From assembly GCF_033880585.1 (NCBI RefSeq), contig NZ_CP137624.1, forward strand, positions 682,001-746,000: DNA of 64,000 bases, given 5' to 3'. A model generated the notes under the pieces. That model was not told the origin of the DNA. It worked only from the letters and a program-made list of their open reading frames with translations, and ran no database searches. Of this stretch, positions 944-48,893 are shown one piece after another. The position numbers were made by a program, and so were the translations under genes. Source of the DNA: Lysinibacillus louembei (GTDB taxonomy: Bacteria; Bacillota; Bacilli; Bacillales_A; Planococcaceae). Positions within the stretch are counted from its first letter, which is position 1; each line of letters opens with the position of its first letter.

Positions 944-1633
944 ATGAACTTTAAAAAAATTATTTCATTATTAACAGTATTTACAATTATCTTTAGCTTA
1001 CTAGCACCTCTGCAATCAAGTGCAAATGATTTCACAGGAGAAAATAACGAAACAAACCTCAATTTTGAATCTTTTATCGAGTATAATGAAGATGCTACTA
1101 ATGGTTTTTTAGAATCTGATTTAGTGTTTGATTCTAATGAAATTATTGTTGAACCAATGTGTGGTCCACCATGTGCCATGATAGCTGTTACAGTAGTTAA
1201 AGAAGGTGGAAAAGCTTTATTAAAAAGTGGGCTTAGACTGATAAAAACGGTAACACCTGCAACAGCTGGGGCTGCATCTAGAGCAGTAGCAAACTATGTT
1301 CCCAAAACTGTAACAATTGGTAAAGAAACGTATACAATAACTGCACGTAATATGCAGCATTACTTAGAGCGCCATTCCATGAAACATTGGAACGGTACTT
1401 GGGAATACAATCAAGATTTCTTTCATACAGGAATGACACTGAACAGGCTTGAAACCATAGCAACATCAGGTGTTAAGGCAAATGCAAGTAAAATAGCAAA
1501 TAGTACTAGTGATTTTGTGACAATCGATTATATGTATGAAGGAATTGGCTATCGAATTGGGGTAAATAAAGCAACAAAACGTATTGAACAACTTTACCCT
1601 AGAGCAACTTTTGTAAATCCTAATAACCCCTAA
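944..1633 (+). CDS. Exported toxin-like protein 1
   Basis: The 229-aa protein has a Sec signal peptide (cleavage likely after SSA, residue 27), an acidic stretch rich in Asn/Glu, the junction IIVEPM at 67-72, a short CGPPC loop (73-77), a hydrophobic/Gly-Ala segment, and a variable C-terminal domain from about residue 120. That domain carries clustered histidines (139, 144, 147, 161) and the block GYRIGVNKATKRIEQLYPR. The layout (export signal, acidic pro-region, hydrophobic segment, small C-terminal domain, partner gene 23 bases downstream) is that of SAR2788-like or polymorphic secreted toxins. I do not recognise the C-terminal domain. A GGAGGAG ribosome site precedes the ATG. A decayed copy of the C-terminus lies at 9777-10037. 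Confidence 0.6.
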   Translation: MNFKKIISLLTVFTIIFSLLAPLQSSANDFTGENNETNLNFESFIEYNEDATNGFLESDLVFDSNEIIVEPMCGPPCAMIAVTVVKEGGKALLKSGLRLIKTVTPATAGAASRAVANYVPKTVTIGKETYTITARNMQHYLERHSMKHWNGTWEYNQDFFHTGMTLNRLETIATSGVKANASKIANSTSDFVTIDYMYEGIGYRIGVNKATKRIEQLYPRATFVNPNNP

Positions 1634-1656
1634 AAGGCAGGGAGGAGTGACTTACT

Positions 1657-2280
1657 GTGTTCACTATTAAAACATGGGTGACTGATACATGGTATGGAGC
1701 TGAGCCACCTGTACCATCGATGAGCGAAGTCAAAAAGCACTTTTATTTATTCGAAGACCCTAAAAATCATCTTGCAATTGACCAAATCATCAATGATAGT
1801 AATGGAGAACCTTCTGGACTATTATTTGGTTTTGTTCATATTACTTACAATGGCCAAGAAATTTTGGGAAAGAGGATGTTTTCTCAAATCTTCATTACAT
1901 GGCATAGTTATGAGATGCTTTTAAAGCAAATGCAAACGCAAAATTTTGCAAATGTGGAACATCCAGAAACAGGCTACACAGCTGTTACTGTCCGCCCTGA
2001 TGATACAGCTCCAAATCAGATTATACTAGAAACCTTCTTTAAGGAAGGTGCTTATTATGAAACTATCTTGGACCAAGAAACGAATCAAGAAACTAAGATA
2101 TTCCATGATATAAAAACAATACATGAAACCTTCATACTGCCACGCAAAGAGTTTTTAAAGGCATTATATGATGCACTGATTAACTATCGCTGTATAAATC
2201 TTAAATTTTTCAAGGTTGAGGATTATAAACAACGCGCACAGGAGTATCTAGATAAATTACTAGCCACACCTTTATATTAA
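1657..2280 (+). CDS. Putative immunity protein for toxin 1 (family member A)
   Basis: This 207-aa soluble protein has no signal or membrane segment. It starts at GTG with GGAGG eleven bases upstream and follows toxin 1 by 23 bases, so it is very probably co-transcribed. It belongs to a local family with conserved blocks TIKTWV, HFYLFEDPKNH, LLFGFVHITYNGQE, MFSQIFITWH, KQNFA and LPRKEFLKALYDAL. Other members lie at 8234 and 9165, with remnants at 7826 and 8827. This copy has extra residues around 137-153 that the others lack. A cytoplasmic family amplified next to a toxin fits immunity proteins. I do not recognise a named family, so the role is inferred from context. Confidence 0.55.
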   Translation: MFTIKTWVTDTWYGAEPPVPSMSEVKKHFYLFEDPKNHLAIDQIINDSNGEPSGLLFGFVHITYNGQEILGKRMFSQIFITWHSYEMLLKQMQTQNFANVEHPETGYTAVTVRPDDTAPNQIILETFFKEGAYYETILDQETNQETKIFHDIKTIHETFILPRKEFLKALYDALINYRCINLKFFKVEDYKQRAQEYLDKLLATPLY

Positions 2281-2282
2281 AA

Positions 2283-2316
2283 TAAGAGCAACTGTCGAAA
2301 AAATAGTTGCTTTTAT
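2283..2316 (+). terminator. Stem-loop terminator after toxin-1/immunity pair
   Basis: The arms GAGCAACT and AGTTGCTT enclose an A-rich loop and are followed by a T-rich tail, immediately downstream of the immunity stop codon. Confidence 0.6.
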
Positions 2317-2728
2317 TAACTTAAGTTTAACGTTACTTACACAAATTAGAATTATTAAGCTTAGAGTAACATAAAAAGACTATATAGTATGGATATGTAT
2401 ATAGTCTTGCAAACCAACATGATATTTGTTATTGCCCACAGCCCTATTTACATTGAATTACTAAATAGGGTATATAAAAATTAGCTTGTAGACTTAAAAG
2501 ATTATATTAAATTTATAAAAGATATTTTCAAAAGAGCTATAAAAACCGATTAAACTACATAAGGCTAAAATGAGTTTTAGTAAGATGGACAGTTAGCTTG
2601 TTTACCACATAACAAATATCACTTAGTTAAAAGAAATAACTTTACTAAATAATCAATTGACTTCAATAGTTTGAGGATTTTTAATAGAAACTTTTACAAT
2701 ATCTAATTTATTTTTAGGAGGAATAATT
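2317..2728. other. Intergenic region before toxin 2
   Basis: No gene is seen in about 410 bases. The region contains two AT-rich hairpins (arms 2376-2386/2398-2408 and 2442-2450/2462-2470) and a separated 12-base inverted repeat (GATATTTGTTAT at 2421-2432, its complement at 2609-2620). These may be debris of an older insertion. The toxin-2 promoter lies at the downstream end. Confidence 0.4.
2657..2685 (+). promoter_or_regulatory. Candidate sigma-A promoter of toxin 2
   Basis: TTGACT (2657-2662) and TTTAAT (2680-2685) are separated by 17 bases and lie 44 bases before the toxin-2 ATG. This is unlike the element shared by toxins 1 and 3. Confidence 0.5.
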
Positions 2729-3259
2729 ATGAAAAAACTTTTACCTACTATTTTGTCTCTATCTTTAGTTTTAATGCTTATCACACCTAGTTATGGACTA
2801 GCTACAACAATAATACCTGATGATGCTATTATATATGAAAATGAGTTTTTAATTGATATTGGATATGAAGATTCTACGATAGATGAATACTACAGTGATG
2901 ATATGGAAGATTACATATTGTCAGAGGAAGTATTAGTACAGCCTATGATAGCTAATGTAATTATTCGTTATGTTGTAGTAAATGGTGCTAAAGTTGCTAA
3001 ACACCTATATAATTCTATTAAATATGCTCCAAAGTATCCGACAGGCTTTAAGGCTGTACAAAATGGCACTAAAAATCATACTGTTAACAATAAAGAATTA
3101 TTAGATGAATTGAGACAAATTGAAGCCGGTACTTGGCATAAAGTATACAAAGATGGCTATGATAAAAATGGGGGAAAAATTTCTATCCATTATTTCCAAA
3201 GTAAATCTGGGCTGGTGTATGATGTTAAAGTAAAAAATGGATGGAGTGTGAAAAAATAA
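2729..3259 (+). CDS. Exported toxin-like protein 2
   Basis: The 176-aa protein has a signal peptide (about residues 1-25), a very acidic Asp/Glu/Tyr middle (30-67), then EEVLVQPM (66-73), equivalent to IIVEPM in toxin 1, and a short hydrophobic stretch. The C-terminal domain (about 103-176) contains GTWHKVY and ISIHYFQSKSG followed by VKVKNGW. That domain resembles small secreted nuclease-like polymorphic toxin ends, but I cannot assign it to a named family. AGGAGG sits just before the ATG. The next gene begins two bases after the stop, giving tight toxin/immunity coupling. Confidence 0.55.
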   Translation: MKKLLPTILSLSLVLMLITPSYGLATTIIPDDAIIYENEFLIDIGYEDSTIDEYYSDDMEDYILSEEVLVQPMIANVIIRYVVVNGAKVAKHLYNSIKYAPKYPTGFKAVQNGTKNHTVNNKELLDELRQIEAGTWHKVYKDGYDKNGGKISIHYFQSKSGLVYDVKVKNGWSVKK

Positions 3260-3261
3260 TT

Positions 3262-3603
3262 ATGAATCAGCTTTTACTAAATTTCTCTACCAATAGCCAA
3301 AAAAAGTTAGAAAAATTGGTTTTGTTAAATATAGTAGGTGTTATAAGTGCTTTAGAGGAAAATGTAATCACTTTAGAGGAAGCTGAAAAGATTATATTCA
3401 GTCCATATGTAATGGATTTATTACATTCAAAAAGAATATCTAACGACGTTATAGAAGTTGTGCATTTAGGAACTGAACTTGAAGATATCGAGAGTTTGAT
3501 CCCTGGAAAGTTAATTGAAAGTTTAAATCATATTAAAATTAGGGCAATTGAATTATTAAAAGAAAGAAATATATATAAGATTGAAGAAAACATGATAACT
3601 TAG
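3262..3603 (+). CDS. Putative immunity protein for toxin 2 (DUF3969-like)
   Basis: The 113-aa protein is acidic, helical and cytoplasmic. I chose ATG 3262 because it follows the toxin stop by two bases; an earlier in-frame ATG at 3241 inside the toxin lacks a ribosome site. The GGAG at 3243-3246 is rather far (15 bases), so expression may depend on translation of the toxin gene. The segments TLEEAEKIIFSPY and LGTELEDIESLIP match my memory of the DUF3969 family, small proteins often found beside polymorphic toxins. The family assignment is from memory, and the immunity role is inferred from coupling. Confidence 0.55.
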   Translation: MNQLLLNFSTNSQKKLEKLVLLNIVGVISALEENVITLEEAEKIIFSPYVMDLLHSKRISNDVIEVVHLGTELEDIESLIPGKLIESLNHIKIRAIELLKERNIYKIEENMIT

Positions 3604-3630
3604 GGAGCAGCTATAGTTGCTCTTTTTTGC
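3604..3630 (+). terminator. Terminator after toxin-2/immunity pair
   Basis: A short hairpin with arms GAGCA(G)CTAT and ATAG-TTGCTC is followed by TTTTTT directly after the stop codon. Confidence 0.65.
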
Positions 3631-3810
3631 ATGAAAAGTAAGTTCTATCATAAGTATGATTCATATATAAATCTCTATGTAAATCATCTTAACTTCTTCA
3701 TAATATGACAGCAATCAAAATCACTGACATATGCAAATAAAATTGGTAGATTGAAATACTTTATACTAAATTAAATATTGAAAAAGCGTTTTTGATTAAA
3801 ATACATACAG

Positions 3811-3873
3811 TTACGACAAAAAACACCTCCCCTTGAAAATAGCATGTTAGAGTAAAATTAAATAATTTAGCTG
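3811..3873 (+). promoter_or_regulatory. Toxin-3 upstream element, copy 2 of the duplicated leader
   Basis: This region shares spacing and sequence with 806-863: a GACA hexamer, ACACCT, then AAAATAGCATGTTAGAG and a run ending in CTG. It ends 48 bases before the left end of an insertion sequence. The toxin-3 start is 39 bases beyond the right end. Removing the element would place this block about 87 bases before toxin 3, matching the 80 bases seen for toxin 1. Confidence 0.5.
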
Positions 3874-3965
3874 TTATTTATCACCTTTTTAATACGAAAT
3901 ACTGGATCTAAGTCAAGATTTCGGACACAAAAAGATTAAGTTTTTTTCTGCACAACAACGATGTA

Positions 3966-4736
3966 TTACGCTGCTGCACGACATATTAGTTCATACTCAT
4001 CTGGTGTTAGATAACCGATACTACCATGAATTCGTTTGCGATTATACCAACCTTTGATGAATTGAAATAAGGCACTTCTCGCTGTCTCAAAGCTTTCGTA
4101 TTTTGTTAGGTAAACTTCCTCTTTTTTCAGTGTGGCGTGAAATGATTCGATACAAGCGTTGTCCTAAGGACATCCTTTTCGACTAAACGACGGAATCATT
4201 TTGTGTTTTTTAAGTAGTTCTTGGAATGCTTCGCTTGTGTATTGTGTTCCTAAATCGGTATGCACAATGAGCCCAGGGTCAGGTTGTTGGTCATTGATCG
4301 CATTCTTAAGCGCTTCAAGTACAATTTCTGTTGTCATTGTACGAGAGAATTTATAGCCAACCACTTTTTTCGTGTGTAAATCAAGAACAGATGCTAGATA
4401 GCACCACCCATTGCGAAGTGTATGGATGTACGTAATATCCGCTACCCATTTTTCATTGATTGTCTTTGTAGTGAAGTCTTGTTTTAATACGTTTTCTCGT
4501 TCGTCCACTGATTTTTGTGTGGATGCTGGACGATATTTTTTTATGATGCATGATTGGATGCCTGCTTGTTTCATAAGACGTTGAACCCTTTTAATACTGC
4601 ATAAGTAGCCTTCTTTTTGGATCTTTTCAGAGATTTTAGGTGCGCCGTAGCGACCTTTACTTTCTTTGTGAATCACTTTAATCCGTTCAAGTAGCGCTTC
4701 ATTGGCGGCATGATAGCTATTGGAGTTCTTGCTCAT
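3966..4736 (-). pseudogene. IS3-family transposase orfB (DDE domain), amber-interrupted
   Basis: The rve/DDE integrase core is evident: KWVADITYIHT, VLDLHTKKVVGY, and IVHTDLGTQYTS followed by SFSRKGCP. At 4162-4164 an in-frame TAG replaces what is normally the Tyr of CPYDNAC. Reading continues cleanly after it through DNACIESFHATLKKEEVY to the natural end ELICRAAA at 3966, so the third catalytic acidic residue is lost from the terminated product. The N-terminal helix usually found before NEALLERI is also missing, which suggests an internal deletion as well. Confidence 0.8.
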
Positions 4737-4999
4737 CTATTTTCTTGCGAATATGGTCATAGCCTTTTTTAAGATTTCAAGCTCTGCCTTAAACGAAGAT
4801 TTTCCTTTTGGATCGCTTCTACATCCGACACAGTTAATTCTTGGGTTCCTTCAAGTGGAGAGTGCTGCTTAATCCATTTGTAAATTGTTACTTCCGACAC
4901 ACCATATTCGCTAGAGAGTTGACTGACCGGCGTACCTGAGCGATAAAGCTCAACTACTGTTTGTTTAAATTCTTGATTATATCGTTTGCGACTCATCAT
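4737..4999 (-). pseudogene. IS3-family transposase orfA, frameshifted
   Basis: This is a helix-turn-helix DNA-binding protein beginning MMSRKRYNQEFKQTVVELY with YGVSEVTIYKWI, typical of IS3 orfA. After ENLRLRQ the reading frame breaks: a single base appears to be missing near 4785, so the frame terminates at 4769. The expected ending ELEILKKAMTIFARK is preserved in the neighbouring frame and stops at 4737. Confidence 0.75.
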
Positions 5000-5091
5000 T
5001 CGGACACGACCTTTCGTTAGTTCAATCATAATGACTTAACCAAGTTGTGTCCAAGTATCTATACTACATTCACTTGAATAGGAGAATATTA

Positions 5092-5661
5092 ATGAAAAAT
5101 TTAATAAAAAAATATTTTATTTTTAGTATGGTTATGGTATTTTTATTTGCAAATCTTTCAATTGTTAATGCAGAAATTAACAAAAACGCTCTTCATCAAG
5201 AAACTTACCAGGATGATTTGTTTAATATAGGTTCATTTCCAATAAACAAAATTGAAAATAATAGTGAACTATATACTCAAAGTTTATTTAACGAAAATTC
5301 TGCAGAGATTCAGCCATATGTTCTGCCTGCGATACCAGCTGTTGTAGCGCTAATAGGTTCTTCAGGGCTAAGGTTTGCTGTTCAAACTTATGGAAGAACA
5401 GTCATTAAAACTCTTATCAAACAGCAAGAAAAGGTTGCTAGAGCTGCTGCTAAAGATTTAGGTTATATTGAATTAAAGAATCTCTCACATGGCGCAAAGG
5501 TATATTCGAGAAAGTCCGGTTCAGGACCTAAGTATATAACTAGAGATATGGATAGTCACACTGGTGGGGCATGGAAAGGAGCAGATACTATCCCTAACTT
5601 AGCGAGAAAAGAAACAAGATCGGGTACTTATGATGTATTTTTAGAAAGAATAGGAGATTAG
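5092..5661 (+). CDS. Exported toxin-like protein 3 (Ntox21-like C-terminus)
   Basis: The 189-aa protein starts at ATG 5092 (GGAG at 5081-5084); an upstream in-frame GTG lies inside the insertion-sequence end and is not the start. It has a signal peptide (about 1-27), an Asn/Glu-rich pro-region, AEIQPYVLP (71-79) matching the VEPM/VQPM junction of toxins 1 and 2, and a hydrophobic segment. The C-terminal domain (124-189) contains LSHGAKVYSRK, YITRDMDSHTGGAWK and TRSGTYDVFLERIGD. This block matches my memory of bacterial toxin 21 (Ntox21), a predicted ribonuclease of polymorphic toxin systems with a BECR fold. The cognate immunity candidate starts eight bases after the stop. Confidence 0.65.
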   Translation: MKNLIKKYFIFSMVMVFLFANLSIVNAEINKNALHQETYQDDLFNIGSFPINKIENNSELYTQSLFNENSAEIQPYVLPAIPAVVALIGSSGLRFAVQTYGRTVIKTLIKQQEKVARAAAKDLGYIELKNLSHGAKVYSRKSGSGPKYITRDMDSHTGGAWKGADTIPNLARKETRSGTYDVFLERIGD

Positions 5662-5669
5662 ATTGAGCT

Positions 5670-6194
5670 TTGAATAAACTACATGACTTTAAATTTAATA
5701 TAAACGAATTTAATATAACTCCATTTTTCCAATCAAAAGAAGAGCTTAGAATAAGATTTGGTACAGAGGTTTTTAAAGGCAATATAAAGACTTTAGAGGA
5801 AATAATTAACTATTTGTTTAACAGGAATGAAGAGATTGAAAGTACTTTTATAATAGGATCTAAATTTAATATGCAAAATGAAATTAAGTACAATAAAATT
5901 GGTCTTAAATCTTTTTTTGAAATTACTAACTGGAACGAGGTTCTTATAGAAAGTGATGATTTAGAGGGCACTGTAGTGTTCGCTACAATAGGAGGTTTAA
6001 AGCCAAGTGGTATTTTTCAATATTGTAAAAGTATTATTTTAGGTAGAATTCCACAAGCATATATTATGTTTTATAACAATTCTTTTCTTCTATACATTAG
6101 TACCGATGTTTTGGATATTATTTCCAAAAAAGAAGAAGATATAATTGCATTAAAAAATAACTATTCTAAAATTCATACCAAATACAATGCTTAA
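5670..6194 (+). CDS. Putative immunity protein for toxin 3
   Basis: The 174-aa protein is predicted soluble, with alternating hydrophobic beta-like segments and a Lys/Glu-rich C-terminus. The start is taken as TTG 5670, 13 bases after AGGAG, overlapping the end of the toxin transcript. I do not recognise the family. Its position directly behind an Ntox21-like toxin and lack of any export signal are the only grounds for calling it immunity. Confidence 0.5.
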   Translation: MNKLHDFKFNINEFNITPFFQSKEELRIRFGTEVFKGNIKTLEEIINYLFNRNEEIESTFIIGSKFNMQNEIKYNKIGLKSFFEITNWNEVLIESDDLEGTVVFATIGGLKPSGIFQYCKSIILGRIPQAYIMFYNNSFLLYISTDVLDIISKKEEDIIALKNNYSKIHTKYNA

Positions 6195-6439
6195 AATTCA
6201 TACCATATTAAAGGGTAATAAGATCCCTTTCCTATTTTACCTATCATTTTTTCTTCTAAAAGTTAGCCTAGAGATGTTAAATAAAAAATTTTTATATTAA
6301 TCTAAACAGCAACTATCCTAGTGATGGTTGTTGTTTGGTTAAGTACATGAACTTTAGAATACAACTTCAAAATGTTTTAGAAAAATTTTTATGAACAATC
6401 TTTTAGATAATTTTAAATGAGCATTTATATGACTAGTAC
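6195..6439. other. Intergenic region after toxin-3 pair
   Basis: A weak stem AAAGGG/CCCTTT (6210-6232) and a second hairpin with arms CAGCAAC/GTTGTTG (6305-6336) probably end transcription from the left. Nothing else was recognised before the transposase remnant. Confidence 0.4.
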
Positions 6440-7255
6440 CTTATGCCGCTTAAGGCTCATTTTTGATTTGTTCAAGTGGTGTCCCGCCTGTTGTTGCTCT
6501 GTACATGAACTCTATGGATATGCGTTGCGAATTGTTTTGTCTGAGTACGGATACCTTGTGGATACAACATACAATTCGTTTTGAGTGCACCGATGACATG
6601 TATCCCTTTAGAAAGTGCAACTTCGATGATTGTACGTGACGTATACCAACTATCACATAATAAATACTTCGGCTGTTTGAGTACGGGTACTTGATTCATC
6701 ATGTCTAACAAAAGTTGAATTTTACTGTCAGTGGTTTCTTTATCAAATAATCAAAAATCGTAAGGATACGCGTGTTGACCTGATTTTAGCATCAATTGCA
6801 CGACTTGATGCCCCCAAACACTTTTCCAATCCGTGTGCGAGAATCGATACCTGCAGCTTTCAATTGGGCAGGTTGCTCGTGACAAAGGCTTTGTTTTTTC
6901 GGGAAATCGTGTCGTCCTGCAAAAAAATACAGGCACATCTACAGAGATGCTTTGTTACATGTATTTTTGAGATTGGTGTAGAAAAAATGCTTCATTCCAA
7001 GGGCTTTTTTTAAGAAAATACCTGTGGGTTGTATGATGCTTTTGGTGGTGACTAAAAGCATGGACTTCTGTTAGTTTGCCAGTGAAACCAACACTCGACA
7101 TCCCATCAATAAAGTGTGTCAAATGCCGTAAAACGGGCTTTGAAAAGTAATAAGAAAACTGCCATTCGAGAAAACCTTTGTTGATTTGTTGGTGATGTGT
7201 TAATCTATTTATCGGACAAATACGCTCCTTTGGTGGATGATGGGGTCAGAGCTTT
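6440..7255 (-). pseudogene. IS701-like transposase remnant
   Basis: Minus-strand fragments in shifting frames assemble into one transposase. The N-terminal part reads HLTHFIDGMSSVGFTGKL and later FLKKSPWNEAFF. The middle part reads EKTKPLSRATCPI, SHTDWKSVWGHQVV and MLKSGQHAYPYDF. The C-terminal part reads YLLCDSWYTSRTIIEVALSK then VIGALKTNCMLYPQGI. Motifs such as GHQVV, CDSWY and GALKTN.(x)YPxGI resemble the DDE domain of IS701-type transposases. Stops and frameshifts near 6750 and 6945 break it. I could not locate terminal repeats. Confidence 0.65.
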
Positions 7256-7399
7256 CATTTTAACTAAAAGAGTGGATTCTGTCTTTTTATTTTGTTTGAT
7301 GGAAGCATTTTGAAGGTCATTTGCTCATTTAGAGTAATAAGAAAACTAAGAAATTTGATGATTTTAAGTTTAAATAAAAACGAAAAGAGTGGTTTCATA

Positions 7400-7750
7400 G
7401 TGAAGAACGAGATAATTGATGAGATTTTAAATGATTGGGTAAGAAAGTTAAACGAAGATGAATTTTATTTTACTCATGCTTTTGAAACTTTAATTGAATC
7501 ATTTACCTCACATGAAGCTTTTGATTTTATTGAACTAATGGTTCAAACAATACTAAAGCTAGATAACCCATTCTTAGTAAATCAATTTATATTTTTCACA
7601 GGTTGTTTGTACAGCAAGGCTAAAACTACTGAACTTCATCCTGTAATGGAAAAGAATCTACCAGCTATTGAAAAGCACATACTACAATTACAAAATTCAG
7701 GCGTACATCGGGAGTGGCAAGAATTAAAAAGAGATTTAAGACTTCCTTAA
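7400..7750 (+). CDS. Small cytoplasmic protein, immunity-like by context
   Basis: I chose GTG 7400 because AAGAGTGG lies 8 bases upstream; the frame is open back to 7292 but without a good site. The 116-residue product is helical and acidic at the N-terminus (NEIIDEILNDWVRKL), with the central block FDFIELMVQTILKLDNPFLV and a C-terminal EKHILQLQNSGVHREWQELK. I do not recognise it. Its location among immunity genes and lack of signal peptide suggest an orphan immunity protein, but nothing in the sequence proves that. Confidence 0.4.
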   Translation: MKNEIIDEILNDWVRKLNEDEFYFTHAFETLIESFTSHEAFDFIELMVQTILKLDNPFLVNQFIFFTGCLYSKAKTTELHPVMEKNLPAIEKHILQLQNSGVHREWQELKRDLRLP

Positions 7751-7825
7751 CTAAGTAATCTACTATAATTAAATCTGTAGGTAAACTGAATTTATAGGGA
7801 AGGCCCTTTTCTAGGATGGACTATA

Positions 7826-8122
7826 GTGGCTTCATTCTACTATGAAGAGGGCTTCTTTTTTAGTATGAGACTTTTCATTTACGCAAAGAATAAATTACTA
7901 TTACCTAGGGAACTTTTAGAACAGATATACAAACAAAACTTTGCGAATGTTACTCATCCAAAAAGAGGCGATAAATCTTTTATTACACTTCATCCTCATG
8001 ATTTCAGTCCAAATCAAATTATATTCAGCATATCCCTTGAAAGAGATACCACTCTATCTTGTGAGGAATTTCTAAAGACATTATATGATACGCTATTTGC
8101 TTATCATCAATGGACAAAATAG
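7826..8122 (+). pseudogene. Truncated copy of the family-A immunity gene
   Basis: The 98-codon frame aligns with the C-terminal two-thirds of the genes at 1657, 8234 and 9165: IYKQNFANVTHPKRGD, FITLHPHDFSPNQIIF and EEFLKTLYDTLFAYHQ. The N-terminal half (TIQTWV through YNGQE) is missing, and the start region is eroded. It is shorter than the intact members by about 85 residues and has no good ribosome site, so I read it as decayed. Confidence 0.65.
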
Positions 8123-8233
8123 CCAACCTTTCAACATCTATAAATGTTCATTTAAGGAATCGGCATTTTAGGCTGGTATATTACTTTCACTGTACCCCGT
8201 TGTAAAATAATTCAATATGGAGGAGTGATTTCC

Positions 8234-8782
8234 TTGTTTACTATTCAAACGTGGGTGTCCGATCAATGGCATAGCGATCCCATACCTATTAAGGAAATTG
8301 ACCAGCATTATTGCCTATTTGATGACCCTAAAAACCATGATTTTATTTGGGATGTGTTAGTTGAACGACAGGCAATTCTGTTTGGCTTTGTTCAAATTAA
8401 TTACAATGGACAGGAACTTATCGGACAAGAGATGTTTTCGCAAATTCTGATTACTTGGCATTACTATAAAGAAATTTTAAAGCAAATGCATAAACAAAAT
8501 TTTGCGAGCACTACACAGCCTGAGGGAGGAGATGAACCTGTTTTTACGGTTCATCCACATAATACAGACTCCTATCAAATTATACTTGAACTATTTCCCG
8601 AAAGAGGTATATCACACAAAGACTACAAAATCTTTATTTTACCTCGTAAGGAATTTTTAAAGGCACTTTACGATGCATTGATTGCTTATCATCAAACCGA
8701 CTTCTTTTTCTGTGCCACAGAGGAACATAAATTGGCTAAAAAAGAGCATATCGATTCATTATTAGCAGAGAAACTATACTAA
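8234..8782 (+). CDS. Orphan immunity-family protein (family A, copy 2)
   Basis: TTG 8234 is the start that aligns with the GTG of the 1657 gene, with GGAGG ten bases upstream; a GTG at 8225 overlaps the ribosome site and is less likely. The 182-aa product opens MFTIQTWVSDQW and shares LFGFVQINYNGQELIG, MFSQILITWHYY, KQNFAS and LPRKEFLKALYDAL with the other copies. It is about 90 percent identical by eye to the 9165 copy and more distant from the 1657 copy. No toxin gene precedes it; instead the 3' end of a gene like 11173 is found just upstream. Confidence 0.6.
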   Translation: MFTIQTWVSDQWHSDPIPIKEIDQHYCLFDDPKNHDFIWDVLVERQAILFGFVQINYNGQELIGQEMFSQILITWHYYKEILKQMHKQNFASTTQPEGGDEPVFTVHPHNTDSYQIILELFPERGISHKDYKIFILPRKEFLKALYDALIAYHQTDFFFCATEEHKLAKKEHIDSLLAEKLY

Positions 8783-8786
8783 ATAA

Positions 8787-8821
8787 ACGAAAACCAATTG
8801 CCTTTTGGTAGTTGGTTTTCT
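8787..8821 (+). terminator. Terminator after immunity copy 2
   Basis: The hairpin arms GAAAACCAA and TTGGTTTTC lie five bases after the stop codon. Confidence 0.6.
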
Positions 8822-8826
8822 TAGAA

Positions 8827-8945
8827 ACATGGATGACTAATACATAGTACGAAACTGTGTCATCTGTACTATCAATGTGGGAGATCGAAAAGCACTTTTA
8901 TTTATTGGAAGACTCCAAAAATCACCCTATAATAGTAAATGTAAA
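8827..8945 (+). pseudogene. N-terminal fragment of the family-A immunity gene
   Basis: In one frame the bases read TWMTNT-stop-YETVSSVLSMWEIEKHFYLLED and then SKNHPII. This aligns residue for residue with TWVTDTWYGAEPPVPSMSEV and KKHFYLFEDPKNHLAI of the 1657 gene. The Trp codon TGG has become TAG. The similarity is closest to the 1657 copy rather than the flanking 8234 and 9165 copies, and it breaks off after about 40 codons. Confidence 0.7.
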
Positions 8946-9164
8946 TCCATCAATAAGCCTTAAAGCCTCAAGTACTTTTAATTCAAGTGTTAAAAATGCC
9001 ATGAAGCTGGATTCGGTTAGTTTGTTGGGTAAACAATGGGTGTCTCAACATCTATAACTGTTAATCATATTAATGTATATTGAAGAACTTAGTGTTGGGG
9101 CCTGTATATTCCTTTCACCGTAACCTCTGTATATGAAATAATTCAATATGTAGGAGTGATTTTC

Positions 9165-9713
9165 TTGTTTACTATTCAAACATGGGTGTCCGATCAATGG
9201 CATAGTGATCCTGTGCCTATCGGTGAAATTGACCAGCATTATTGCCTATTTGATGACCTTAAAAACTATGATTTTATTTGGGATATATTAGTTGAACGAC
9301 AGGCAATTCTGTTTGGCTTTGTTCAAATTAATTACAATGGACAGGAGCTTATCGGACAAGAAATGTTTTCGCAAATTCTGATTACTTGGCATTACTATGA
9401 AGAAATTCTAAAGCAAATGTATAAACAAAATTTTGCGAGCGCTACACAGCCTGAGGGAGGAGATGAACCTGTTATTACGGTTTGTCCACATAATACAGAC
9501 TCCAATCAAATTATACTTGAAGTATTTCCCGAAAGAGGTATATCACACAAAGACTACAAAATCTTTATTCTACCTCGTAAGGAATTTTTGAAGGCACTCT
9601 ACGATGCATTGATTACTTATCATCAAACTGACCTTCAATTCTACGTTGTAGATGAGCATAAACAGGCAGCAAAAAGACATATTCACTCTTTATTAAACCA
9701 ACCTCTATACTAG
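9165..9713 (+). CDS. Orphan immunity-family protein (family A, copy 3)
   Basis: The start is TTG 9165, with TAGGAGTG upstream, matching the 8234 copy. The 182-aa product is nearly identical to that copy up to about residue 158 (LITYHQTD), after which the last 24 residues diverge (LQFYVVDEHKQAAKRHI versus FFFCATEEHKLAKKEHI). Divergence confined to the tail may reflect recombination or specificity change. No toxin precedes it. A decayed toxin C-terminus lies downstream at 9777. Confidence 0.6.
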   Translation: MFTIQTWVSDQWHSDPVPIGEIDQHYCLFDDLKNYDFIWDILVERQAILFGFVQINYNGQELIGQEMFSQILITWHYYEEILKQMYKQNFASATQPEGGDEPVITVCPHNTDSNQIILEVFPERGISHKDYKIFILPRKEFLKALYDALITYHQTDLQFYVVDEHKQAAKRHIHSLLNQPLY

Positions 9714-9714
9714 C

Positions 9715-9751: not shown

Positions 9752-9776
9752 TAATCAGTTTAAAGATTTAAATTTC

Positions 9777-40260: not shown

Positions 40261-40283
40261 AAAAAGTTTGACCTCCTACAGTC

Positions 40284-41058
<775 letters not shown>

Positions 41059-41144
41059 TAAAATAAATTAAATTAAAGAACGTCCCAATTATACGCACCT
41101 ACTTGCTTGAATGCAAGAGCAGAAAAGCAAAAATTTTATTGGAA

Positions 41145-41840
41145 TTATTTGTTTGCTAGCTTAATTGTCGTTTGTAATTGCTCCTTGAACGCTTGAAATG
41201 CCTTACCTTCTTTGCCATAATAGCTCATGCTGCGGCATGCTAAAACTTTCACGGTATTGCCATTTTTGTAGCGAAGCTCAGCAAAAGCACCAAGCTCCTC
41301 TAGCTCCTGCACTTTACTTATTTGGCTATAATGATCTGTTAGTTGCTCAGCAAAGCTTGCTCTAAACTGCTGGACGGCCTCTGTACCATGTAAAATCATC
41401 CATTGTGGCTGAAACTCCTCCAAAACCTCTTGGAAAATAGCTTGTCCTCTTTTATATAAAGCAGGACTTTCCTTCTGTGCTTGCTTAAGCTCCTGCGCAT
41501 TCTGCACTTGCAATGTGTTAACATACGTAGCAACAGCTTGCTCATTTACTTGTTGCGCCAGCCATTCTATAAAATAAGTCGTTCCGAGATACTCTCGCGA
41601 CTTTTGCTTCATCTCATAGCCATACATTTCATCAAATAGCAGACCATTTACTAATGCATCGATATAGACACCTTCATCTGTCGTATTACTATCAATTTTT
41701 GGTGCAGCGAATGCACCTACCACAAATATTGCTGATTTATATGGATTGCCATCCACTTGAAATGGTCGAAACGCTAAGCGTGCATCGCCCTCTGTTACCC
41801 ATGCTTTTATTTTTTTATAAAATCCTGTCGATACTGCCAT
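41145..41840 (-). CDS. Protein of unknown function, UDG-superfamily-like
   Basis: ATG 41840 has GAAGGAAG upstream, giving 231 residues. The stretches FRPFQVDGNPYKSAIFVVGA and WMILHGTEAVQQFRASF are reminiscent of the uracil-DNA-glycosylase-like fold (a GxNP-like loop is not obvious). I do not recognise the protein. Probably cytoplasmic. It lies alone between the xpt leader and an MFS gene. Confidence 0.5.
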   Translation of the reverse strand: MAVSTGFYKKIKAWVTEGDARLAFRPFQVDGNPYKSAIFVVGAFAAPKIDSNTTDEGVYIDALVNGLLFDEMYGYEMKQKSREYLGTTYFIEWLAQQVNEQAVATYVNTLQVQNAQELKQAQKESPALYKRGQAIFQEVLEEFQPQWMILHGTEAVQQFRASFAEQLTDHYSQISKVQELEELGAFAELRYKNGNTVKVLACRSMSYYGKEGKAFQAFKEQLQTTIKLANK

Positions 41841-41971
41841 TTGCTTCACTTCCTTCGAACAATGATTGCTTGCATTTTAGCATACTTTCAGCGCTGTTGT
41901 AAGCAACCTTTTAGAAATCGCTATCCAGTTGCTATATAATGGAGTAATTATGAACGACGAGGAGGATCGAA

Positions 41972-43159: not shown

Positions 43160-43221
43160 TGCGAACATTTGTGCTTTTTGTGATATAATGAAAGGTATCA
43201 TTATAGTAAGGAGTACAAATT

Positions 43222-43776
43222 TTGAAAAAAAGAAAGAAAAAACGTAAAACGAGCTTCGTCACTTCATTGCTTCAATTGTTGTTATTAGCTGCCGGTGCTG
43301 CTGGCTGGTATTATACAAAAACGTGGAAAGGCATTGTAGCTGCCATTGTTATTTATTGCATTGTCCTTATTTGTGGCACGATTTGGTTTAAAACGAGACG
43401 ACTTGCCCGCTTACGCAAAGCAGGAATTAAAGAAGTGGATGCGATGTCTGGCGAGGAATTCGAGCAGTTTTTAGGTCAATTATTCAAACGACGTGGCTAT
43501 AAAGTTTCTTATACCGCTACTTCTGGTGATTACGGAGCAGATTTAATTTTAAAGGACCGCAAAGACATTATCGCCGTACAAGCAAAGCGCTATAGCGGCA
43601 CAGTCGGCGTAAAAGCGGTGCAGGAAATTATCGGGGCGGTTAAAATGTACAATGCTACAGAGGCGTGGGTTGTTACAAATAGCCATTTTACAAAGCAAGC
43701 AATTAAGCTGGCGAATATTAATGATGTCTACTTAGTTGACCGCGAAGAGCTGATTGATTTGATTTTGAAAAAATAA
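43222..43776 (+). CDS. Membrane-anchored Mrr-type restriction endonuclease domain
   Basis: The start is TTG 43222 with AAGGAG. The 184-aa protein has a Lys/Arg-rich N-terminus and two helices (about 14-28 and 37-52). The Mrr_cat domain follows (75-184): MSGEEFEQFLGQLFKRRGY, the catalytic Asp in SGDYGADLIL, and QAKR (Gln-x-Lys) in IIAVQAKRYSGTVG. It has the PD-(D/E)xK active site of type IV-like restriction enzymes that cut methylated DNA. Membrane tethering suggests action on incoming DNA. No methylase neighbour is present. Confidence 0.75.
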   Translation: MKKRKKKRKTSFVTSLLQLLLLAAGAAGWYYTKTWKGIVAAIVIYCIVLICGTIWFKTRRLARLRKAGIKEVDAMSGEEFEQFLGQLFKRRGYKVSYTATSGDYGADLILKDRKDIIAVQAKRYSGTVGVKAVQEIIGAVKMYNATEAWVVTNSHFTKQAIKLANINDVYLVDREELIDLILKK

Positions 43777-43784
43777 TAAAAGCC

Positions 43785-43817
43785 GTCTGAATTGGATGTT
43801 CAGACGGCTTGCTTTTT
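43785..43817. terminator. Bidirectional terminator after the Mrr gene
   Basis: The stem AGCCGTCTGAA/TTCAGACGGCT is followed by TGCTTTTT. Confidence 0.8.
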
Positions 43818-44520
43818 ATTTATCTAACTTGAAAACGACATTGCCAATGCCCATTTCCACATTTATATTAATTGTTACTTCCTTATTGCCATATGCCTCA
43901 TTCACATAAGTATCCTTGCCTTGTGCAATAAAACCATCAATATCGACTGAGCCAATTCCCTTTTCCACTGTAATTTTTACTCCTACCTCTGATGGTAGAG
44001 TGACAGTCGTTTGTCCAACACCTGACTCAATTGTTGTATCAAAGCTTTTTTCCCAATCGCCACCTAAATTGACGGATAAATCACCAACACCTGTTTCAAT
44101 TTCTAAATTTTCAAGCTGTAGCCCTTGTAAATCAAGATTTGCAACAGCAGCCCCTGTCTCTACATACAAATTCATTGGTACATCTTCATTTAGCTTCAAA
44201 GCCCAGTTACTTTTTATTTCAGAAAGTGCAAGGTTTTTCGAGCCTTTTTGTTCAATTGTAAGCTCGCCTGTATCGCCAGCTAGCTTATAACGAGTATGTG
44301 GTGCCAATTTCTTTTTATTATACTCTGCAACGCCTTCTAGCCATTGCTCTGCACCCTTGGCAACTGTCACTTCACCTACACCAAGCTCAAGATTAACATC
44401 TAACTGCTTCGCTCCATCTTTCTCAACAACAATGGCTTCCTCCTCAGTTTTGCTAGGCAAAATAGAGCTACACCCCGCTAACATGGCAATCGAAACACCA
44501 AGCACTACTAATTTTTTCAT
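43816..44520 (-). CDS. Toast-rack (LiaF-like) lipoprotein
   Basis: The 234-aa product has the lipobox MLAGCSS (Cys17). The body is a series of beta segments with repeated GVG/GIG turns: LELGVGEVTVAKG, IETGVGDLSVNLG, IESGVGQTTVTLP, VEKGIGSVDIDG and VEMGIGNVVFKL. This is the toast-rack fold shared with the N-terminal part of LiaF-type and DUF2154 proteins. It should sit on the outer face of the membrane. Role unknown; LiaF relatives govern cell-envelope stress signalling. Confidence 0.8.
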   Translation of the reverse strand: MKKLVVLGVSIAMLAGCSSILPSKTEEEAIVVEKDGAKQLDVNLELGVGEVTVAKGAEQWLEGVAEYNKKKLAPHTRYKLAGDTGELTIEQKGSKNLALSEIKSNWALKLNEDVPMNLYVETGAAVANLDLQGLQLENLEIETGVGDLSVNLGGDWEKSFDTTIESGVGQTTVTLPSEVGVKITVEKGIGSVDIDGFIAQGKDTYVNEAYGNKEVTININVEMGIGNVVFKLDK

Positions 44521-44617
44521 TTTTATATCCTCCCTCTACATACTTTATCTGTTACTTTCAGTATATAGAAGCTGTATTTTTCTAGAAACCCTCCTGCGGT
44601 GGAATTGCAACTACGTC

Positions 44618-45658
44618 TTAAGGCTGATATGGTGATTTTTGATAAAAATAGTTCGGCTTGTTAATATCATTCGACATTGGCTTATGATAAATATGTGTCG
44701 TAGCTGGTGATAGCGGCGGAATTAACCATGTCCAATTGCCTGTCACTTCGCGATTTGCTGCTTGCTCCTGCTGCTCGAAAAGCTTAAATTGCTGTGCTGC
44801 TGTATGATGATCGACAATGCTAACCCCTGCCATTTTAAAGGAGTGTAGTACAGCAATATTTAACTCAACTAATGCTTTATCCTTCCATAAAGAGCTGTTT
44901 GATTCACGTGCGATGCCGATAATATCTGCTACAGCAGGCAGCATATTGTAGCGCTCCACATCAGCAAAATTGCGTGCGCCAATTTCCGTCCCCATATACC
45001 AGCCATTAAATGGTGCTGCTGTATAGTCAATCCCGCCACAGTTCAAGCGCATACTTGAAATAATTGGAACGGCATACCATTTCAACTGTAGCTCCGCAAA
45101 ATGAGGATAATCTGGATGCGTTATTTCAACTTCTAGCACATGCTTGCGCGGAATCTCAAAGCATTTCGGCTTTCGGTCATCTACTTGAATTACTAATGGC
45201 AAGACATCAAAGCGTGTTCCTTCTCCTCGCCAGCCAAGCTCCATACACATTTGCGTAAACTGTAGTGAATCTGAATCACCAACTATACCATCCTTTGTTT
45301 CATAGCCTGCATAGCGAATCAGCTGATGATTCCAAATTCTTACACGCCCCGCAGCAAAAACCGTTTGTGTTGGTCGAATTTTCCCACCATTAGTCGCAAA
45401 ATCAATATGACGCAGCAAGGCTTCGAAAATAGCTTCTTCCTCTAATAAATGGCGCTCGTCAAAAACATGGAGCGACTGCCAAAAAAGACGCCCAATGCAT
45501 TTATTGCTATTGCGCCACGCAACCCGTGCACCAAATGTTAACTCCTCTGCCGTTAGCTCATACGGTCTCTGCTGTAGTCGCTGCGTTAGCCATTCGTCTG
45601 TTTTTTGATATTCTTTTTTATATAAATTGAAAAAATCATACATTTCCTGTTGCTTCAT
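44618..45658 (-). CDS. nos: Nitric oxide synthase oxygenase
   Basis: ATG 45658 has GGAGG eight bases upstream. The 346-aa protein is a bacterial NOS oxygenase without a reductase domain. [16 protein letters not shown] supplies the heme-ligating Cys. Other family blocks are [37 protein letters not shown] (substrate-binding region with [14 protein letters not shown]) and SWxW-like [15 protein letters not shown]. It makes NO from arginine with a separate reductase and protects Bacillales from oxidants and antibiotics. A single gene. The length matches the family. Confidence 0.95.
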
Positions 45659-45823
45659 TATTCCATCCTCCACTCACCTTCATTGTAGAAGATGCGTAAA
45701 GGGAAACCAATGCTTGATGCACGTCGCAAAACATGTATTTTTCATATATGACTAAATTTAGTCAAAATAAGGATAGAGAATTAAAGATTTATCAATTACT
45801 ATAAATAAAAAGGGGGAATGGAA

Positions 45824-45967
45824 ATGATTTGGATTATTTTAAGTATCGTCATATTTTTTATCGGGTTTTTAACGCCAATTAGTGGGCTATTTACACTTCC
45901 GATTAGTGTGGCATTAATGATTTGGGGGATTTTCGTATTATTTAAAACTAAGAGAATCACACGGTGA
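45824..45967 (+). CDS. 47-aa hydrophobic peptide upstream of a membrane protein
   Basis: The sequence starts MIWIILSIVIFFIGFLTPISG and ends LFKTKRITR. It has two hydrophobic segments with a Pro-rich hinge. AGGGGGAA precedes the ATG, and its stop overlaps the next GTG start, so it is probably translated and coupled. It is not recognised; it may be a small partner or immunity membrane protein. Confidence 0.5.
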   Translation: MIWIILSIVIFFIGFLTPISGLFTLPISVALMIWGIFVLFKTKRITR

Positions 45968-46323
45968 TTAGAAAAATAATAAGGTTACTGATTCCTGCTT
46001 TTTTCACTATCTTTTTTATAAGAGAAATATTCGTACGAGAACATAGGTCTTTCAAAGTACCTGCTATTTTGCTAGCAATCGTTACTGTATGTGCACTCGT
46101 ACAAAATATATTGGCATTTAAATACCATGCTAAAGAGAATACAAGTGAACCAATATTATTGAAGAAAATCATTGGATTACTTGTTTTTTCTGTCATTATT
46201 ATTTTGTTCCCCCAAGTAATTTTCATAGAAAGTCATTGGCTTTTCAAAATACCTGTGCTGCTGCTTATCTTTTACGCCCTTTTGCAATTCGTTCACTATC
46301 TAAAAGATAAGAGAGCTGCCTAA
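45964..46323 (+). CDS. Immunity-like membrane protein, paralogue A
   Basis: The 119-aa protein starts at GTG inside the previous stop. It has about four helices and two copies of a motif: IREIFVREHRSFKVPAIL and VIFIESHWLFKIPVLL. It is a clear paralogue of 48902. No bacteriocin gene lies next to it, so it looks like an orphan immunity-type protein. Family not recognised. Confidence 0.55.
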   Translation: MIRKIIRLLIPAFFTIFFIREIFVREHRSFKVPAILLAIVTVCALVQNILAFKYHAKENTSEPILLKKIIGLLVFSVIIILFPQVIFIESHWLFKIPVLLLIFYALLQFVHYLKDKRAA

Positions 46324-46343
46324 ATACAAGCCTTTAGGCAGCT
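46313..46343. terminator. Bidirectional terminator
   Basis: The stem AGCTGCCTAAA/TTTAGGCAGCT overlaps the last codons of the membrane protein and ends in TTGCTTT. Confidence 0.65.
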
Positions 46344-46347
46344 TGCT

Positions 46348-47247
46348 TTATTGCTCAGGCAAATAATTCACCTGCCAAATGCCATCTGCTGTTTTCGATA
46401 AACCAAAAAAAGCTCTTTTATATTTCGTAAAAATATAGGCCTTGTGATTTTCTTCAATTTTTTCATAAAGTTGCGTATGCTTAAAAGCAGGGTTGCTTTT
46501 TAAATCGCCTATGTCTTGACTAAATTCCTCAAATGTTGGTTTTACACTCTCTTCATTGATTAATTCATAAATGACTCGTATATCATTTTGCTCCATGGCA
46601 AATTGATATAACTGAAAAACTTCATGTGGTGCAAGATTAATCAGTAAAGCCTTATTCAATTCCTGTGAAAACTGAAGATATATTTTTTCAAGCTTCTCAT
46701 CCAGTAAAAGCTTGCCCTGCTCATTTAAAGTCAGTTGAAAAGTAAATAAATGCTCATATTCAGCCCAATCAGTTCCCAAATCCAATATATTTGTATCTTT
46801 CGCTAAATAAGCATCCTTTATCTTCTCTAATCCTTTAATTGTGATAATTGCAGGTACATCTATATAAAGCTCTGGCATGTCACGTAAAACTTTCTCTGCA
46901 CTAGGTGGAAACATAATTTTAGTTGAAGCCTTAATTGCCCCTCTTAATTCTGGATAATCTTCGATAGATTCTTCATTTACTTGAAAGTAAAATACGTCAT
47001 TTTCATAGTGAATCATACCTAATAAATCACCTCCAAAATTAGCCAAATTGGCATTTTTATCTGATGGAATCAGTTGGAGTAAAGCAAACAACATTAGGTA
47101 GCTCGTCAGCAAAATTGTTGCGATATAAAATGAGTTATTTTTTTGCTTAGCTTTTGTATTCTGCTGAATTTGCTTTCTCGTATTTTCGATAATTCTCCTT
47201 TTACTACCTTGCATTGCCTCAAAGCGTTTAAATTGCCATTTACTCAT
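46348..47247 (-). CDS. Anti-sigma-like membrane protein (partner of ECF sigma 1)
   Basis: The 299-aa protein has a basic cytoplasmic N-terminus of about 40 residues, one helix (41-61) and a large outer domain. The order sigma then transmembrane protein, with the ATG overlapping the sigma stop by four bases, is the rule for ECF sigma/anti-sigma pairs. The outer domain is not recognised and lacks a known protease site. It should hold the sigma factor at the membrane until a signal arrives. Confidence 0.7.
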   Translation of the reverse strand: MSKWQFKRFEAMQGSKRRIIENTRKQIQQNTKAKQKNNSFYIATILLTSYLMLFALLQLIPSDKNANLANFGGDLLGMIHYENDVFYFQVNEESIEDYPELRGAIKASTKIMFPPSAEKVLRDMPELYIDVPAIITIKGLEKIKDAYLAKDTNILDLGTDWAEYEHLFTFQLTLNEQGKLLLDEKLEKIYLQFSQELNKALLINLAPHEVFQLYQFAMEQNDIRVIYELINEESVKPTFEEFSQDIGDLKSNPAFKHTQLYEKIEENHKAYIFTKYKRAFFGLSKTADGIWQVNYLPEQ

Positions 47248-47717
47248 GTGAAGTCCACTCCTTCCAACTTTTCTTTCAAAAGCTCCCTACCTCGTTTCAA
47301 CCTAGATTTTACCGTGCTTTCAGGTGTCGCTATAATTGCTGAAATCTCCTTTGTTGTAAATCCTTCAAAATAATAATACGTAATGATTTCCCTAAATTTT
47401 AACGGCAGTGCCAACACTTCTTCCTCTAATGCTGAGGATTCATAGAGGATGTCTGTTATTTTTAAAATAGGTAGCTTTTTATAAAGGACAAGTTTTCGAT
47501 ACGCCCAACTCTTTAAATAATCTTTACATTTATTGGAAGTAATTTTAGTAAGCAATGCCTTTAATTCTTCGTGTGCTTGGTGATTGTAGGTGTAATAATA
47601 TTTAATAAAGACTTCCTGCACAATGTCCTCAGATGCTTGCACATCCTTTGTGTAATAATAGGCAATACGAAATAACAGGTCGGTATATTCATCCATCACA
47701 TCTTCTAAATGATTCAT
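47244..47717 (-). CDS. ECF sigma factor 1
   Basis: ATG 47717 has GAGGAGG upstream, giving 157 residues. Region 2 (DLLFRIAYYYTKDVQASEDIVQEVFIKYY) and region 4 (LALPLKFREIITYYYFEGFT and PESTVKSRLKRGRELLK) are clear. ECF factors like this redirect RNA polymerase to stress genes. The paired downstream anti-sigma is translationally coupled. Confidence 0.9.
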   Translation of the reverse strand: MNHLEDVMDEYTDLLFRIAYYYTKDVQASEDIVQEVFIKYYYTYNHQAHEELKALLTKITSNKCKDYLKSWAYRKLVLYKKLPILKITDILYESSALEEEVLALPLKFREIITYYYFEGFTTKEISAIIATPESTVKSRLKRGRELLKEKLEGVDFT

Positions 47718-47756
47718 TTTCGGCCTCCTCTCACTACTATAAACGATTCTCACCAT

Positions 47757-48089
47757 CGAAAAAGACGAATAATTTTTTTAGCGAATAAAAAAATGCTCCT
47801 CATTTTCAATGAATATAATGTGCGCTCAATATTGTTAAAAAATATGTATGATTCCCCCCTAAAATATTGCTCCTCTCCCCTTTGATTACAATTAGAAACA
47901 GAACCTTAATTTTGCCATTCCCTACTCCTGTTAATTACAATTGCGGTACGTAGATTGATACGATGTTATTACCTTGAGGTAAGACACTATGCTATAGCAA
48001 AAAATTCAAATACCTAAATCTTTACCTAGTATAGTCTACGAATTTTCTATTAATATTGAATCATAGTAGACAGAAGAAAGGACTATTTA
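47757..48089. other. Intergenic region before the bacteriocin-like gene
   Basis: No gene is seen in these 333 bases. It is AT-rich, and no clear sigma-A promoter was found for either side; a short TTGAGG-like hexamer near 47974 lacks a proper -10. An ECF-type promoter for autoregulation of the sigma gene could also be here but was not identified. Confidence 0.4.
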
Positions 48090-48893
48090 ATGATGAATGT
48101 AAATTTTAAAAAATGGCTATTAATCAGTGCAATTTTCATTACAGGGTTCACAACAATAATCTTCCCATTAGAAAGTTATGCTGCTGCTAAGAATGAAATT
48201 TCAAATGATTCTATTAATATGATTAAACAAACAAATAGTGAATTGATTTATGAAGTTGAACAAGATGGAGTGCTTTTACGTTACGAAGAGGAAATCCAAG
48301 AATATGAAAATAAAACGGAAGTCAAAACTAAAATCTATCAAGTAAATAATGGAGAAAAGGTATTAATAGAGGACTCTAAGAAAGAGTTTATAGAAACAAA
48401 CTCTTTCATTGAAATTATTAAAGATGATGAAAGTATCTTTTTTGATTTAGCAGAATCAAACAATGTTGAAATAGCCCTCATACAACCTTTCGCTTATAGT
48501 AGTTGGGTCAATTCAATGGTGTTAGGCTCCAAGCTCGGATATCGTAGAGATTTATCAGCAAATTATGGAGATGCGAAATATAGCTCCATGACTAAATCGA
48601 AAATTAAGCTTAATGATGCAAATTTCGATTCTTTTAAATCCCAAGTTGATGCTTTACGAAGTAGGGAATCTACTTTTATTTTTGAAGCAACAGCAGTGAG
48701 TGCTATAATTCATATAATCGATAAAGGTTTTACACAATGGTCAATTGGTGATCTTTTTACCCTTGCAAAAAAACTTGCTGTACCTGTTAATATAGCTTGG
48801 GAAGTTGCTCATTGGGTTTGGGACTACAACAAAGCTATTAATGCATGGTATGATATACCTGTAAAACATACAGGTGGGTTTTGGGGTGATTAA
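48090..48893 (+). CDS. Exported bacteriocin-like protein (geobacillin-26-like)
   Basis: The 267-aa product has a signal peptide (about 1-32, ending ESYAAA). A charged pro-region follows with EVEQDGVLLRYEEEIQEY and VKTKIYQVNNGEKVLIED, then EIALIQPF, echoing the VEPM/VQPM junction of the 1-6 kb toxins, and a Trp-rich C-terminus (WEVAHWVWDYNKAINAWYD). Layout and the EVEQDG block resemble geobacillin-26-type bacteriocins; I recall this from memory and cannot confirm it. The next gene starts eight bases after the stop and looks like its immunity protein. Confidence 0.55.
   Translation: MMNVNFKKWLLISAIFITGFTTIIFPLESYAAAKNEISNDSINMIKQTNSELIYEVEQDGVLLRYEEEIQEYENKTEVKTKIYQVNNGEKVLIEDSKKEFIETNSFIEIIKDDESIFFDLAESNNVEIALIQPFAYSSWVNSMVLGSKLGYRRDLSANYGDAKYSSMTKSKIKLNDANFDSFKSQVDALRSRESTFIFEATAVSAIIHIIDKGFTQWSIGDLFTLAKKLAVPVNIAWEVAHWVWDYNKAINAWYDIPVKHTGGFWGD

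Follow-up and report, generated by a model that had tools for sequence, protein, structure and literature searches.

A probable bank of Sec-exported polymorphic toxins in Lysinibacillus louembei and a junction module shared with SAR2788-type proteins

Introduction

How nucleases exported by the Sec pathway enter other Gram-positive cells is an open question, and it is raised again by a toxin locus of Lysinibacillus louembei (GCF_033880585.1). The stretch of DNA analysed here, called the window throughout, comprises 64,000 nucleotides (nt) of NZ_CP137624.1 (positions 682,001-746,000, forward strand) and carries four genes for exported proteins, which we call toxins A, B, C and D after their start positions 944, 2729, 5092 and 48090; L and G numbers denote the loci and genomes compared. 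A sequence-only reading of the window had proposed that these four proteins share one modular front end that carries different “warheads”, and that the tetrapeptide joining both parts may be a cleavage site. From their sequences we conclude with moderate confidence that A, B and C are polymorphic antibacterial toxins exported through the Sec pathway, that each is encoded together with an immunity protein and may be opened at the junction, and that D is an exported candidate. In sequence order, the parts are a signal peptide, an acidic pro-region, the junction, a segment that is basic and weakly hydrophobic, and a C-terminal domain of the nuclease type that can be exchanged. The locus as a whole is probably an antibacterial bank of exported toxins with matching protective genes.

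Results

All four open reading frames lie where the sequence-only reading had placed them (Table 1), and most of the layout that it described was borne out: each protein starts with a signal peptide, continues with an acidic pro-region and the tetrapeptide [VI][EQ]P[MYF], differs from the others in its C-terminus and is followed directly by a small gene (gap of 8-23 nt, or an overlap). The hydrophobic stretch past the junction is present in A, B and C, but not in D (maximum Kyte-Doolittle (KD) value 0.76). Behind the N-terminus, which is hydrophobic in all four, the acidic stretch has a net charge of -11, -15, -6 and -14 in A, B, C and D, and the basic segment of 40 residues after it +4, +6, +4 and +5. 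This acidic-to-basic switch at the junction was found in 14 of the 15 proteins measured, with L017 as the exception. Each of the four proteins has the tetrapeptide once, and 58 other window genes, 15,857 residues in all, contain it a single time, at a chance expectation of about 0.05 in four proteins of such size; since the motif was defined on A-D themselves, after the fact, its count in the window alone is no test.

Evidence of another kind comes from a profile of the junction and the segment after it, which was built from twelve relatives in other genomes and includes no sequence of the window. Run against the whole 3.96 Mb genome, this profile matched C (E 1.6e-9) and A (E 4.5e-4), each at its junction, and nothing else below E 0.7. 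In leave-one-out tests with composition shuffles and class-preserving shuffles as controls (1000 or 2000 each), C obtained 40.0 bits, reached by none of 1000 shuffles of either kind, and A 25.1 bits, reached by 0/1000 composition and 17/1000 class-preserving shuffles. B scored 2.0 bits against the general junction profile, which is not significant, as 29 to 256 of 1000 shuffles equal it. Against the WG subtype (L021, L070, L096) it scored 9.7 bits (0/2000 composition, 52/2000 class-preserving shuffles); part of this match is warhead, and removal of the residues shared with the warhead left 7.1 bits (229/2000 class-preserving). The junction profile bears out A and C, with neither B nor D significant. 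A match of L053 (G036) to the front of B was rejected as an unrelated membrane protein.

These scores also bear on the possibility that the front ends are alike by convergence only, i.e. that a signal peptide, an acidic linker and a chance tetrapeptide occur together without any common module. At profile level this holds for the junction of D, and B is left undecided by its score. However, A and C are the sole significant genome-wide matches to a profile that contains neither, which refutes convergence for both, and the refined motif described below was recovered in samples of 261 and 400 genomes. As an account of the whole set, we regard convergence as highly improbable.

The refined motif is a heptad, h-(Q/E)-(P/A/S)-x-h-h-P with V, I or L in position 1, taken by eye from alignments of 47 proteins, of which a few fit only in part. 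It is carried by dozens of proteins from Bacillota, whose C-termini are of many kinds, and the module precedes EndoU-like, Ntox21, colicin-E3-type and several unnamed ends; in the relative L072, IQPMVIP is joined to a colicin-E3-type domain (PF09000, 6e-10). Position 7 is Pro in 37/47 proteins, and position 3 is Pro in 13/17 short/other-front members, versus Ala or Ser in 26/30 long-front members of the SAR2788 type, where Pro occurs in one. VEPM and IQPY represent the Pro version, with the full heptad in A and C and only its first half in B and D. The idea of one module with different warheads therefore applies to A, C and many relatives and is plausible for B, but it fails at the junction of D; likewise, the expected conservation of the proline in homologues holds for the short fronts and not for the long ones. 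The suspected relation to SAR2788 was confirmed, since residues 66-110 of C align to positions 134-177 at the end of the SAR2788 profile, though below its cut-off (E 2.2e-7).

Besides the motif, both classes differ in a neighbouring gene. Using the S8 peptidase of L043, where SAR2788 is annotated beside it, as a query against all fetched loci, we found an S8 subtilase gene adjoining the toxin at 25/30 long-front (SAR2788) loci and at 0/17 short/other-front loci, those of the window included (D was counted among the 17 by its absence from the window matches to this query). Upstream and on the same strand are 23 of the 25 genes, with gaps of -26 to +87 nt (the gene of L089 is a fragment); in L091 and L106 the subtilase gene lies behind the immunity gene. 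After clustering at 50% identity, the gene was present in 15/18 (long-front) versus 1/10 clusters, for which the Fisher test (p = 2.7e-4) is a rough guide because the loci are not independent, and in a separate Bacillota lineage it accompanied five of seven further loci retrieved via the family profile. The encoded subtilases are small (~240-330 residues), have an N-terminal membrane segment or a lipobox, and show recognisable D, H and, in most cases, S motifs where the reading covers them. The genome of the window has no close homologue of them, only two partial S8 matches in proteins of about 1450 residues. In the literature searched, the coverage of which was limited, the subtilase-SAR2788 operon is not described. 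The L043 sequence (CP079755.1) is recorded as Klebsiella grimontii plasmid pNY3A, which places a Bacillota-type subtilase-SAR2788-immunity operon in a Klebsiella record; a mixed assembly or a transfer is possible.

What does this linked protease act on? The gene tracks the front and not the warhead: Ntox21 toxins with a long front have it (L043, L088, L089), and those with a short front do not (C, L007, L010, L066). This is the behaviour of a partner of the pro-region and argues against the alternative that the subtilase works on the envelope of producer or target, or degrades incoming toxin, rather than maturing its neighbour. In favour of that alternative, gene linkage is the sole basis known for a maturation role, and two of the genes stand behind the immunity gene; we consider it rather unlikely. 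Because the subtilase accompanies the long-front class, cleavage at the heptad is plausible for SAR2788-type proteins. Cleavage exactly at the proline of the window proteins is not the best reading, since the subtilase goes with the Ala/Ser class only and has no close homologue here, and the suggestion of the junction as a cleavage site is accordingly kept for the former and not for the latter.

A broader version of this suggestion would have general extracellular proteases cleave the junction in all members, the Pro type included, so that the mature protein starts at or near P(M/Y/F). It draws on the conserved position of the junction across unrelated warheads, on its place at the charge switch and on the dedicated subtilase of the SAR2788 class. 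However, subtilases disfavour proline next to the scissile bond, the short-front loci have no linked protease, and the genome of the window has no close homologue of it, so that we judge general cleavage to be improbable and do not accept that the proline marks a cut in every member.

Table 1. Features of the toxin locus and its surroundings (window coordinates; toxin and immunity functions as predicted from sequence; numbers in the last column are residues unless marked otherwise)
Feature	Position	Strand	Description
agrB	75-620	-	PF04647, 5.4e-31; part of a complete agrBDCA set
Toxin A	944-1633	+	Signal peptide ~1-27; acidic pro-region ~28-67; heptad VEPMCGP (69-75); hydrophobic/basic segment ~76-110 (candidate entry segment); putative EndoU-like RNase domain ~115-226
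Immunity gene of A	1657-2280	+	Homologue L019n (34% identity, 4e-35) directly follows an A homologue
Toxin B	2729-3259	+	Signal peptide ~1-25; strongly acidic pro-region; junction VQPMIAN (70-76); hydrophobic/basic segment; warhead ~93-176
Immunity gene of B	3241-3603	+	DUF3969 (PF13108, E 2e-25)
IS3-type element	3923-5052		19-bp imperfect terminal inverted repeats at nt 3923-3941 and 5034-5052
Toxin C	5092-5661	+	Signal peptide ~1-27; short acidic pro-region; heptad IQPYVLP (73-79); hydrophobic/basic segment; Ntox21 domain 118-189
Immunity gene of C	5670-6194	+	Homologous to genes directly behind Ntox21 toxins in L043, L002 and L089
Lone immunity gene	7292-7750	+	Related to the immunity gene behind toxin L069 (44%, 5e-31)
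Paralogues/fragments of the immunity gene of A	7826-8122, 8225-8782, 8857-9057, 9156-9713	+	
Lone paralogue of the gene behind D	45964-46323	+	61% identity; no toxin; ~2 kb upstream of D
Toxin candidate D	48090-48893	+	Signal peptide; beta-rich pro-domain ~44-95; IQPF (131-134)
Putative immunity gene of D	48902-49276	+	Small multi-pass membrane protein directly behind D

Concerning the warheads, A belongs to a C-terminal family in which 10/13 aligned members match PF14436 EndoU_bacteria (best 7.7e-7), A itself being unmatched; A further shows a weak fold match to the contact-dependent inhibition (CDI) toxin complex 5hkq, and its family is also found in a B. glycinifermentans LXG effector and in Streptomyces HINT proteins. 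A-type proteins only (A residues 73-77; L020, L030, L031, L102) have paired cysteines, CGPPC/CGPLC, in or just after the junction, which could form a disulphide that must open upon entry; a scan of genome contigs with the CGPPC block matched Lysinibacillus halotolerans only. The Ntox21 domain of C (PF15526) was assigned at E 1e-23 and 83.9 bits, well above the gathering cut-off of 25, and its immunity gene is 40% identical to the L043 counterpart (1e-35).

In B, residues 80-173 match the end of a P. aeruginosa DUF637 protein with 56% identity, and the similarity is clear from about residue 93 onwards. The last ~84 residues correspond to the C-terminus of Gram-negative FhaB/DUF637-type proteins and of Moraxella haemagglutinin-type proteins, and the boundary of the swap lies directly past the hydrophobic segment. 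A DUF3969 gene also accompanies the Gram-negative copies of this warhead (Pseudomonas, Moraxella). The E. coli plasmid pL65-4 (L044, 6767 bp) carries a lone copy of the B warhead (54% identity) with a DUF3969 gene behind it, and in another genus (L033, G114:C109) a remnant of 25 residues is 96% identical to the C-terminus of B, which points to a recent transfer of the warhead cassette.

D stands apart. Its pro-domain scored 19.6 bits against the pro-domain profile of the A-type proteins L020, L030 and L102 (0/2000 composition, 1/2000 class-preserving shuffles) and is the sole significant match to this profile in the window background. The supposed relation to geobacillin 26 was not substantiated, as D reached 10.6 bits (E 0.37) against family NF035925, whose cut-off is 40. 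From its sequence, D is an exported toxin candidate that has only the beta pro-domain in common with A-type relatives, and the membrane protein behind it is its probable immunity gene.

Structure-based searches added little: AlphaFold models from two-sequence alignments had a mean pLDDT (predicted local distance difference test) of 50-54 and left the junction segment unmodelled, fold searches with these models gave nothing significant and only weak matches to CDI toxins, and sequence searches of the PDB with these proteins were uninformative. Scans of viral contigs with each of the four proteins turned up no relatives.

Read from its genes, the locus has the anatomy that Zhang et al. (2012, PMC3482391) described for polymorphic toxins: a constant N-terminal delivery part is combined with unrelated toxin domains, and cognate immunity genes are joined by lone ones, which occupy 7.3-9.7 kb (7292-9713, + strand). 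Immunity families track the warhead and not the front, with C grouping with L043/L002/L089, A with L019 and B with DUF3969. In the matching locus of G018, an intact homologue of the immunity gene of A stands behind a 36-residue remnant of A, together with lone immunity genes; G065 has no toxins between the flanking sodC and fhuF-like genes.

Directly left of A, and read away from it, lies a complete agrBDCA set (G000:C1:679868-682075, L119), mostly outside the window, with AgrC- and AgrA-like genes and an AgrD-like peptide MRLIQ...KKDCHFIFYAEDMPKALQEQHPFMKKEE. This neighbourhood suggests density-controlled toxin expression; the general AgrA-like pattern ACAGTTNNG showed no enrichment in the window. 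A segment of 90 bp before A (766-855) recurs before C (3773-3860) with 73% identity (E 2e-8), and the exact 13-mer TGTTAGAGTAAAA occurs in both.

Discussion

For the mode of action, we infer the following sequence of events. The acidic pro-region would mask the basic entry segment and thereby keep export harmless. Outside the cell, the pro-region would be cut away or displaced at the junction, and the freed segment could then engage the single membrane of a related Gram-positive cell and aid the toxin domain across, with immune siblings being protected inside the cell by the immunity protein. In the SAR2788 branch, opening would probably be performed by the membrane-anchored subtilase encoded beside the toxin. 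In the short-front branch of the window, where Pro replaces Ala/Ser and no protease is encoded nearby, opening may be left to general proteases, or may be needless.

A different role for the segment behind the junction would be that of a stop-transfer or anchoring helix, with no processing at all and the toxin held on the producer surface or its C-terminus left in the producer cytoplasm. In A-C the segment is indeed hydrophobic and comes after a signal peptide, and the immunity proteins of these three look cytoplasmic. On the other hand, the segments contain charged residues and are weak transmembrane candidates, and SAR2788 is present in the culture supernatant of S. aureus (PMC9973311), which supports release rather than anchoring. 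We hold such anchoring to be quite improbable and favour opening at the junction.

Several observations nevertheless weigh against this proposal. The hydrophobic segment is marginal in A-C (KD 1.5-1.75 over 19 residues), poor on the Hessa scale and has no confident structural model. B fits the architecture, yet its membership in the junction module, while plausible, is statistically unproven. At the junction, D failed the profile test (-3.4 bits), and IQPF is absent from its relatives L036, L037 and L045. The IS3-type element sits about 40 bp before C and parts it from its likely promoter; as it lies between the shared upstream segment and the gene, C may be poorly expressed here. Finally, alicyclobacillin 24 (Ali24, Geo26-type) is active when nothing but its signal peptide is left out (PMC13176240), so that a removable pro-region is not general; should D be of the Geo26 type, this speaks against processing being obligatory in proteins like it.

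Taken further, the data could fit a two-branch delivery system of Bacillota, in which one branch has a membrane-anchored subtilase, encoded in the toxin operon, that opens (V/L)-Q-(A/S)-S-h-h-P during export, the Pro version of the other branch, to which the window belongs, marks a shortened, protease-independent front, and both branches deliver the same warheads into Gram-positive cells with no type VII machinery involved. We put this forward tentatively, as a possibility for which our confidence falls somewhat short of even. To the question of entry, the analysis contributes a defined junction motif, a candidate entry segment and a genetically linked protease in related operons. Since there are natural pairs in which one warhead is borne by different fronts, processing and entry are directly testable. 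In addition, the NCBI label “SAR2788 putative toxin” can now be placed in a modular toxin system.

Among known systems, SAR2788 (NF038340) shares export, the heptad and the segment after it with the window proteins, C covering the last 44 positions of the profile. In contrast, the latter lack the long beta pro-region, have Pro instead of Ala/Ser and no subtilase neighbour. Whole-protein scores stay below the NF038340 cut-off of 50 bits (C 30.8, A 13.2, B and D none), and homology of the junction region is found for C directly and for A through the profile of relatives. Class III bacteriocins such as geobacillin 26 and alicyclobacillin 24 (PMC13176240) resemble D in size, in having a signal peptide and in the order of a beta-rich part before a helical, partly hydrophobic end, although D falls short of the family cut-off by sequence. 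With LXG/type VII toxins the window has the warhead family of A in common; its toxins, however, carry Sec signal peptides and have no LXG match in Pfam or NCBIfam. CdiA/FhaB proteins have warheads in common with B and C, and likewise the DUF3969 partner, on a wholly different delivery front. Polymorphic toxins that depend on Sec and have lineage-specific N-domains, such as MafB of Neisseria (PMC3482391), differ in a front that is unrelated by family scans and in a surface lipoprotein partner, where the Gram-positive relatives of the window proteins have a free subtilase gene; they are alike in signal peptide, constant front, variable toxin end, and adjacent as well as lone immunity genes.

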